Origin: Candidatus Woesebacteria bacterium GW2011_GWC1_42_9
Lineage (GTDB): Bacteria; Patescibacteriota; Microgenomatia; UBA8517
Direction: 5' to 3'
Assembly (NCBI GenBank): GCA_000995185.1
Contig: LCET01000001.1
Span: forward strand, 167,028 to 213,180
Length of the DNA: 46,153 bases
The notes beneath the pieces are model-generated. The model was given only the letters and a program-made list of their open reading frames with translations. It had not been told where the DNA came from and did no database searches. The position numbers and the translations under genes were made by a program. Below, one piece after another: positions 22,639 to 35,526 of the stretch; within the stretch, counting starts at the first letter, position 1; every line of letters starts with the position of its first letter.

Positions 22639-22778
22639 ATTTATTCACCTCCTTGTAGGGCAATTAACTTAAATGAATCTAATGATTTAGTTTGATATTG
22701 TCAAGTAGTGATTTTGCCGATCTTTCCATCACTTTAATGGATTAAAGTATTGAGGGGATAAAGATGATTTTATATGGG

Positions 22779-22852
22779 CGAGGCTGAGGGGATTTGAACC
22801 CCTGATCTCTTCCGTGACAGGGAAGCGCTTTAAACCGCTAAGCTACAGCCCC
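22779..22852 (-). tRNA. tRNA-Asp (anticodon GTC)
   Basis: Acceptor GGGGCTG pairs with CAGCCTC (one G-T), and anticodon stem CTTCC with GGAAG around CTGTCAC. The T-arm is AGGGGTTCAAATCCCCT. Discriminator G and C38 agree with known Asp identity elements. CCA is not encoded. A TACAAT -10 lies 12 bases upstream on the minus strand. The Asp-like tRNA at 34751 differs in these identity positions. Confidence 0.93.
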
Positions 22853-22919
22853 AAAACACCTTATTGTACAATTTTTAGCCTAATTATTCCAGAATTTAAA
22901 AAAAAGGGGGGGTTGAGGT

Positions 22920-34307: not shown

Positions 34308-34706
34308 ATGGCATTGTCAATTGAATTTAAAGAACAATCTTTTGGGGTTGGGGATGTGGTTAAGATCCATCATAAAGTTGCCGATCGAATTCAGGTTTAC
34401 GAGGGGACCATTATCGGTGTTCGTGGAAGAGGAACGGGTAAATCATTCACTGTAAGGAGAATCGGCACTCAAAAAGTTGGGATTGAGCAAATTTTCCCCT
34501 TGCACTCTCCTTTAATCACAAAGATCGAAAAGGTCCGTGAGGGGATGCGCGGGGTCCGCAGAGCCAAATTGTATTATATTCGCAATAAAAGTAAAAAAGA
34601 TATTGAATTAATCTACTCTCGGGCAAAAAAACGGGCGCTTGCTAAAGAAGCCGCTAAAAAGAAACCTTCTTCACAAAAGAAATCATCTCCAAAGAAGAAA
34701 AAGTAA
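34308..34706 (+). CDS. rplS: 50S ribosomal protein L19
   Basis: This 132-residue protein at the subunit interface shows [31 protein letters not shown] and [10 protein letters not shown], the L19 core, then [10 protein letters not shown] lysine/serine-rich tail of about 25 residues extends past the usual end, which makes it longer than the typical 115 residues. The tail is low-complexity and its role is unknown. Confidence 0.95.
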
Positions 34707-34710
34707 TTTC

Positions 34711-34738
34711 TTGACAAGTTTACGATATCTCGTATAAT
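34711..34738 (+). promoter_or_regulatory. Consensus promoter of the atypical tRNA pair
   Basis: TTGACA (34711-34716), 16-base spacer, TATAAT (34733-34738). Both boxes are perfect consensus, the best promoter in the window, 12 bases before the first tRNA. Confidence 0.85.
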
Positions 34739-34750
34739 TTCCTGACAAAA

Positions 34751-34827
34751 GGGTCTGTAGTTCAAAGTTGTCGGTAGAACGCTCGGTTGTCAATTGAGAA
34801 CTGAAGGTTCGATCCCTTCCAGGCCCA
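34751..34827 (+). tRNA. Atypical tRNA-Asp-like gene (anticodon GTC)
   Basis: Acceptor GGGTCTG pairs with CAGGCCC, D-stem GTTC with GAAC, T-arm GAAGG-TTCGATC-CCTTC is canonical. The anticodon loop TTGTCAA would read GAC (Asp). Oddities: the D-loop is 13 bases (AAAGTTGTCGGTA); the anticodon stem CTCGG/TTGAG has two G-T pairs next to the loop; the discriminator is A and position 38 is A, whereas the normal tRNA-Asp at 22779 has G73 and C38. It is transcribed from a consensus promoter with the tRNA-like RNA that follows. It may be a second, divergent tRNA-Asp or a tRNA with altered identity. Confidence 0.7.
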
Positions 34828-34833
34828 ATTTAA

Positions 34834-34945
34834 GGGGGTGTGGCTGAAGAAGTTAAAGCACGTTACGGAAAAACTTTACACTGCTGAAAAAAGTTGTAAC
34901 GGTTTACGTTCAGACGTAATGTAGGCGCAAGACCTACCATCCCTA
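34834..34945 (+). ncRNA. tRNA-Ser-like RNA with enlarged anticodon arm
   Basis: The first 28 bases follow the tRNA-Ser 5' half (GGGGGTGTGGCTGAAG...TTAAAGCAC). Acceptor GGGGGTG pairs with CATCCCT, the T-stem GTAGG with CCTAC and a long variable arm TTACGT/ACGTAA (34904-34919) is present, as in type II tRNAs. The anticodon arm is abnormal: CGTTAC (34861-34866) pairs with GTAACG (34896-34901), then a 5-base bulge, then AACTTT/AAAGTT, with a 12-base loop ACACTGCTGAAA that still contains a Ser(GCT)-like CTGCTGA. The T-loop reads CGCAAGA instead of TTCAAGA. A terminator follows after 8 bases. Whether it works in translation is unknown. Confidence 0.65.
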
Positions 34946-35016: not shown

Positions 35017-35526
35017 ATGGTGATTTTAGGGATTGATCCTGGGACGGCAACGACTGGATATGGAATTGTTGAATATTCTGAAGATAAAATTACTGCCAGA
35101 AAATTTGATCTGATCGAGACAAACAAAGACGGGTCTCCTTCAAAAAGACTCATGTATATTCATAGCGAATTAGTGAAGCTGATTGCTCTACATAAACCCG
35201 ACGTATTTGTGATGGAGAAATTATTCTTTGCTACCAACGCAAAGACTGCAATTAGAGTAGGGCAAGCACAGGGAGTGATGCTATTAAGTGCGGCAGAAGC
35301 AAATTTGCCGGTATTTGAATATGCTCCTGGGACTATTAAAAAAATGGTCGCTGGGAATGGACGGGCGGACAAGAAAGATATCCAGCGTTCGCTAAGGAAA
35401 GTTTTCGGAGCTAAAGTAAAAAGTAAAGCGAAGAAGAAGACTCATTTTGACAATGCGGCTGACGCTTTGGCCGTATCACTGTGTCATATCTATACTCTTA
35501 AAGGAGGTGATAAAATTGAGCGGTAA
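35017..35526 (+). CDS. ruvC: RuvC Holliday-junction endonuclease
   Basis: This 169-residue RNase H-fold resolvase cuts Holliday junctions at recombination sites. Asp7 (G-I-D-P-G) and Glu67 (V-M-E-K-L-F-F) are in place. The C-terminal acidic site reads F-D-N-A-A-D-A-L-A: Asp149 aligns with E. coli Asp141, while the position of Asp138 is Asn146 with Asp145 just before it. Thermus RuvC has His there, so this position varies in the family. The 3' end overlaps the next gene and contains its Shine-Dalgarno. No ruvA or ruvB is adjacent. Confidence 0.92.
   Translation: MVILGIDPGTATTGYGIVEYSEDKITARKFDLIETNKDGSPSKRLMYIHSELVKLIALHKPDVFVMEKLFFATNAKTAIRVGQAQGVMLLSAAEANLPVFEYAPGTIKKMVAGNGRADKKDIQRSLRKVFGAKVKSKAKKKTHFDNAADALAVSLCHIYTLKGGDKIER

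Follow-up and report, generated by a model that had tools for sequence, protein, structure and literature searches.

The locus described here lies in a 46,153-nucleotide stretch of the Candidatus Woesebacteria bacterium GW2011_GWC1_42_9 genome (contig LCET01000001.1), and this whole stretch is hereafter referred to as the window. Between rplS and ruvC, we found a short unit on the forward strand in which a promoter-like sequence is followed by an off-type tRNA gene (tRNA-Asp#2), a tRNA-shaped RNA (hereafter the candidate), and an intrinsic-terminator-like hairpin, with ruvC further downstream; the candidate is the last RNA of this unit. The features, together with an ordinary tRNA-Asp gene of the window, are as follows:

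34308–34706, + strand: rplS (50S ribosomal protein L19; TIGR01024, PF01245), the upstream neighbor
34711–34738, + strand: promoter-like TTGACA-16-TATAAT, 12/12 consensus bases
34751–34827, + strand: tRNA-Asp#2, an off-type second "tRNA-Asp" (GTC) called by ARAGORN (RF00005, 52.7 bits)
34834–34945, + strand: candidate, a type II tRNA-shaped RNA with 33/33 pairs and the discriminator A73 at 34945
Acceptor stem of the candidate: 7 pairs, 2 of them G-U
34843–34859, + strand: D-arm of the candidate, 3 pairs, loop GAAGAAGTTAA without GG
34861–34901, + strand: lengthened anticodon arm of the candidate (outer stem of 6 pairs, bulge GGAAA, inner stem of 6 pairs, 12-base loop)
34904–34919, + strand: long variable arm of the candidate, 6 pairs, 4-base loop TCAG
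34921–34937, + strand: T-arm of the candidate, 5 pairs, loop CGCAAGA replacing the usual TTC-type loop
34950–34993, + strand: intrinsic-terminator-like hairpin with T-run, 14 pairs, −17.2 kcal/mol
35017–35526, + strand: ruvC (TIGR00228, NF000711, PF02075), the downstream neighbor
22775–22853, − strand: ordinary tRNA-Asp

None of 300 shuffles of the 80 upstream bases reached the promoter score of 12/12. An initial annotation made from the sequence had credited the candidate with a strong promoter; the match is complete, but it is placed upstream of tRNA-Asp#2 rather than directly before the candidate, and thus would serve both genes, which are separated by only 6 bases. The strong terminator claimed there was borne out by the hairpin and its T-run (z −4.7; matched by 0/200 shuffles), which a simple terminator scan did not pick up. 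A −10-like TTATACT was seen by eye immediately ahead of the ruvC ATG, so the RNA unit appears separate from ruvC. Sugar-phosphate genes are located downstream of ruvC in the window; a functional link between these and the candidate was considered and rejected, as the order ruvC-metallopeptidase-holA-phosphomutase is also found by eye in the relative G004. Unlike the ordinary tRNA-Asp of the window, tRNA-Asp#2 has a 13-base D-loop, A73, and the anticodon loop TTGTCAA. AspRS requires G73 and C38. In the phage comparison, the tRNA-Asp#2 part of the window was similar to actinophage tRNA-Asn genes only.

A complete type II cloverleaf can form at 34834–34944 on the forward strand, and all 33 pairs are standard. 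The type II acceptor, D-arm, long variable arm, and T-stem reported initially are all present, as is the enlarged anticodon arm with its 6-pair stem, 5-base bulge, second stem, and 12-base loop; the reported change of TT to CG in the T-loop corresponds to CGC where TTC would be expected. Like type II tRNAs (Ser, Leu, and Tyr), the candidate arranges its acceptor, D, variable, and T helices as in a tRNA; unlike them, it lacks an anticodon loop and both elbow motifs, namely, the GG of the D-loop and the TTC of the T-loop. Its 1-72 pair is G1-U72. A descriptor of this cloverleaf matched only the candidate on both strands of the 46-kb window and had no match in 60 one-strand shuffles, although it was composed after the candidate had been seen and is thus weak as a probability. 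The cloverleaf (−27.5 kcal/mol) is not the minimum-energy fold (−29.7 kcal/mol), and the folding stability of the candidate is ordinary (z −0.5 and −1.5). Both a tRNA gene finder and the Rfam tRNA model were silent: ARAGORN did not call the candidate, and RF00005 did not report it in a search up to E 10. With a tRNA fold that lacks decoding features, the candidate is a putative pseudo-tRNA.

Among the 43 tRNAs above the RF00005 cut-off in this genome (G000), we found four ordinary tRNA-Ser genes at other places (GGA, TGA, GCT, and CGA), all of which have G73 and G1-C72; this also answers the earlier call to search for the full serine set. A covariance model of ten type II tRNAs (R2) matched the candidate in register at 7.9 bits, compared with 78–86 bits for the four tRNA-Ser, which are themselves part of R2, and 15.7 to 51 bits for those array tRNAs of relatives (see below) that R2 found. 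As encoded, the anticodon loop is not a 7-base loop with U33, and among 24 single contiguous excisions from the arm, none produced such a loop with a purine at 37. The candidate is not a decoding tRNA-Ser, and the expected inability to decode is supported: an anticodon loop is not restored by any single excision, the D-loop has no GG, and the T-loop has no TTC. The genome contains a second tRNA with an enlarged arm, a tRNA-Asn with 15 additional bases on contig C17 (L307), which was set aside because this contig looks archaeal by eye (aIF2-beta-like, aIF1A-like, and KH proteins). Contig C17 is a probable assembly contamination, and the 15-base insertion is taken as an archaeal intron.

The same locus was surveyed in the 49 genomes of the family, including the one studied here, that have a match to the RuvC of the window; named records among the relatives are mostly Candidatus Woesebacteria. 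In 13/49 genomes, ARAGORN called at least one tRNA gene within 1.5 kb upstream of ruvC and on its strand. No tRNA was recognized there in the other 36/49, four of which have less than 1 kb of upstream DNA (L204, L211, L225, and L242). We classified 24 of these array tRNAs from 12 of the 13 genomes, omitting the single tRNA-Ile of G017, which is ordinary by eye. Under a strict definition of a canonical anticodon arm (stem of 4–6 pairs, loop of 7 bases, U at 33, A or G at 37), 15 of the 24 are off-type and 8 are canonical (including tRNA-Asp#2 and the tRNA-Ile of G029), while the remaining one was not parsed but is canonical by eye. In the off-type arms, the loop has 6, 8, 11, 14, or 16 bases, or a 7-pair stem ends in 3 or 4 loop bases, or position 33 is A or G. 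Of the controls, drawn from the own genome and G008, 78/84 passed the same test; the six that failed appear to have been parsed wrongly, given that 83/83 controls passed a looser test, compared with 12/24 array tRNAs. The acceptor and T arms are intact in the 15 off-type tRNAs, and the TTC T-loop is kept in all 23 array tRNAs that were parsed. These counts exclude one more tRNA-like gene, in G039, whose anticodon arm is very large and which ARAGORN did not call (L243 2253–2351, 32.2 bits).

Structured RNAs are interleaved with these tRNAs: a z of −3 or lower was obtained for 17/20 inter-tRNA stretches, a set that excludes the candidate and one terminator, and in which the borders were drawn by eye and some stretches possibly contain terminators. 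For the first tRNA of 9/12 units, a promoter match of at least 10/12 lies no farther than 80 bases away; such a match was also reached by 41/300 shuffles in G022 and 17/300 in G008. Between the congeneric genomes G008 and G039 (L292 and L294), the last array tRNA differs by four double compensatory changes in the D and anticodon stems, and its anticodon loop reads CGCGAAA in one and ATAGGAT in the other. G004, which has the highest RuvC identity besides the own genome (69 percent), has a layout like that of the window, namely, a promoter, a tRNA with a disturbed anticodon arm, a long-hairpin RNA, and ruvC. Upstream of ruvC in 18 outgroup genomes at the order and class levels (L227 and 17 others; G069 and G070, which have RuvC matches, were left out), tRNAs were seen in four (L254, L256, L262, and L266). 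All are ordinary by eye; apart from the tRNA-Ile of L254, they lie on the strand opposite to ruvC.

Other observations were made in these arrays. In G003, G008, and G039, the array ends with a structured RNA that has a long helix and the core AAGGTGTTTGTGGCACT and whose pairs differ among the three (L231 5550–5660; L243; L230 5200–5270). C-rich, anti-Shine-Dalgarno-like stretches such as CCUCCUCC occur in several array RNAs (L209 1394–1471; L202 1367–1452; L251; L250). In G008, no tRNA-Asn and no tRNA-Ser were found outside the array; however, 72,000 of its 1,078,885 bases are N, so these absences carry no meaning. We found no description of such a locus among the open-licence papers listed on manA, CPR/Microgenomates tRNAs, tRNA-like RNAs and introns, non-decoding anticodon arms, pseudo-tRNAs, and tRNA clusters.

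The unit of the window resembles the ruvC-upstream units of these Woesebacteria in its position just upstream of ruvC and on the same strand, its promoter, its tRNA-like gene, and its structured RNA. The candidate itself differs from their off-type tRNAs, which keep a normal T-arm and have no sequence similarity to it. The explanation that we favor, at slightly better than even probability, is that the candidate is a small RNA that has a tRNA shape but does not decode, made as the last product of a short unit at a variable rplS-ruvC locus. Several findings count against this explanation. No homologue of the candidate, and hence no covariation, was found by DNA search across 95 genomes, and a single-sequence model run over 50 genomes gave nothing convincing (one match at E 0.08, coding by eye). 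In addition, the stability of the candidate is ordinary, 36/49 genomes have no recognized tRNA at the locus, 8/24 array tRNAs including tRNA-Asp#2 are canonical, and tRNA duplication and decay are seen elsewhere.

An alternative, which we regard as rather unlikely, is that the candidate arose by duplication of a type II tRNA gene (for serine, leucine, or tyrosine) and is now a pseudogene decaying without function. Alignments against shuffles gave z 3.45 with tRNA-Leu(TAA) and z 2.9 with tRNA-Ser(GGA), and the in-register R2 match points in the same direction; the two homologue searches gave no relative that would demonstrate constraint. Partial tRNA copies are found beside real tRNA genes, as 3′ halves and as a 5′ half and a 3′ half that flank an intact tRNA-Met (L317 1580–1660 and 2950–3020; L025 90–190; L377 940–1220), which indicates that tRNA duplication and decay do occur. 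However, all 33 pairs of the candidate are intact, those of the long added helix included, the promoter and terminator are both intact, and in relatives, the off-type tRNAs of this locus maintain their helices by compensation.

A kinship with the manA RNA family (RF01745), of which the candidate would be a minimal relative, appears improbable. manA RNA is tRNA-like, occurs in phages and plasmids, and is often located beside tRNA genes (PMC2864571; PMC3692125; PMC7779021), and the manA and tRNA models have been linked, at low score, through the cloverleaf (PMC3692125). A search of 321 bases with 4227 families gave a 17.1-bit RF01745 match for the candidate (E 0.024), and the four tRNA-Ser give no RF01745 match up to E 10. 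The motifs UGGCUGAA.AA and GUAGG..CGCA.GA..CCUAC are common to the candidate and the patescibacterial manA of L073 (z 3.3), and tRNAs lie near the true manA in 4/20 viral loci scanned. The RF01745 score of the candidate is nevertheless far below the gathering score of 55.2, and the z of 3.3 is no better than the 3.45 obtained with tRNA-Leu. In the RF01745 alignment, the 5′ hairpin falls on the end of tRNA-Asp#2 and the D-domain hairpin is missing; the candidate thus lacks a 5′ hairpin of its own, the D-domain hairpin, and the inner hairpin domain. With manA, the candidate shares the D-domain motif CUGAA.AA, the closing GGG/CCC helix, a variable-arm-like helix, and tRNA neighbors, but it is shorter (112 bases versus about 190), has three hairpin domains fewer, and reaches 17 of the required 55 bits. 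Where manA has the sequence core CUGAAUAA..UAAGGU, the candidate reads CUGAAGAAGUUAAAGC. The family is also rare around this genome, with scores above 40 bits in 2/95 relatives and matches in 1/373 in the class (E 1e-4) and 1/379 in the phylum (E 0.001), and the downstream sugar-phosphate genes are no help because the gene order is the same in G004. Descent of the candidate from manA is possible.

In viral contigs, manA gave at least 120 matches, and 20/20 of those scanned are true manA. Two manA-like RNAs below the Rfam cut-off were observed on small contigs of two patescibacterial genomes (L073 1501–1656, 51.9 bits; L074 1501–1687, 41.6 bits); L073 is phage-like by eye, and a phage search with it gave no match. 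Another Rfam match slightly below its gathering score is an FMN riboswitch in G075 (L079 1574–1733, 63.1 bits).

SerRS uses G73 and the long variable arm. The initial annotation proposed that the candidate could be charged with serine for a non-translational use, and it does have a long variable arm and a tRNA-like acceptor stem. However, A73 and G1-U72 differ from the G73 and G1-C72 of all four tRNA-Ser, the R2 score is far below theirs, and both elbow motifs are missing, so that serine identity did not hold up and charging by SerRS is very improbable. The non-translational role itself is supported as a possibility. The least probable reading is the minimal intron also raised there; its removal would have to yield a tRNA that decodes serine or tyrosine codons. 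Neither Tyr(GTA) nor Thr(GGT) was found among the 43 tRNAs, and tRNA-Tyr is a type II tRNA with A73 as in the candidate, but no single excision restores a canonical loop, both elbow motifs are missing, and in G008 about 1.1 kb separates the two genes, so a single gap could account for both absences, which are probably due to the assembly.

For the favored explanation, a non-decoding small RNA, we consider that the candidate is probably released from a tRNA co-transcript. A single transcript would cover tRNA-Asp#2 and the candidate, and the enzymes that process tRNA ends (RNase P at the 5′ end, and RNase Z or exonucleases at the 3′ end) would recognize the tRNA-like element. Such end cuts, with tRNA-Asp#2 marking the cut, would free a candidate with defined ends, on which the cloverleaf may confer stability. 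RNase P reads mainly the acceptor-T stack. The intact acceptor and T arms and the free anticodon arm of the off-type array tRNAs fit selection for tRNA end processing alone. Unlike the 23/23 parsed array tRNAs, the candidate has a broken T-loop and is thus not one of these punctuation-type tRNAs; with this loop lost, it is better seen as a released RNA than as a cutting signal. Phage tRNA clusters hold phage-encoded stable non-tRNA RNAs that are co-transcribed with tRNAs, e.g., RNAs C and D of T4.

Once freed, the candidate may work outside the ribosome, and its most likely role is that of a regulatory or protein-binding RNA, by analogy with the Bacillus cereus pseudo-tRNA known as tRNA-Other (PMC3399842). 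tRNA-Other is likewise tRNA-shaped and acts outside translation; a larger regulatory RNA may include it as a structural element (PMC3399842). tRNA-Other differs from the candidate in having a Trp anticodon, being weakly lysylated, and residing at another genomic place in another phylum (PMC3399842).

A broader and more speculative proposal, which we hold only tentatively and consider rather doubtful, is that Woesebacteria keep a fast-evolving small-RNA locus between rplS and ruvC, at which non-decoding tRNAs serve the enzymes of tRNA processing as natural cutting signals and release changing structured RNAs, the candidate included. If true, this locus would be a natural counterpart to engineered tRNA-punctuated RNA arrays. 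If confirmed, it would also show how bacteria whose genomes are very small can naturally obtain several small RNAs per transcript, and the tRNA counts of such genomes would include non-decoding genes.
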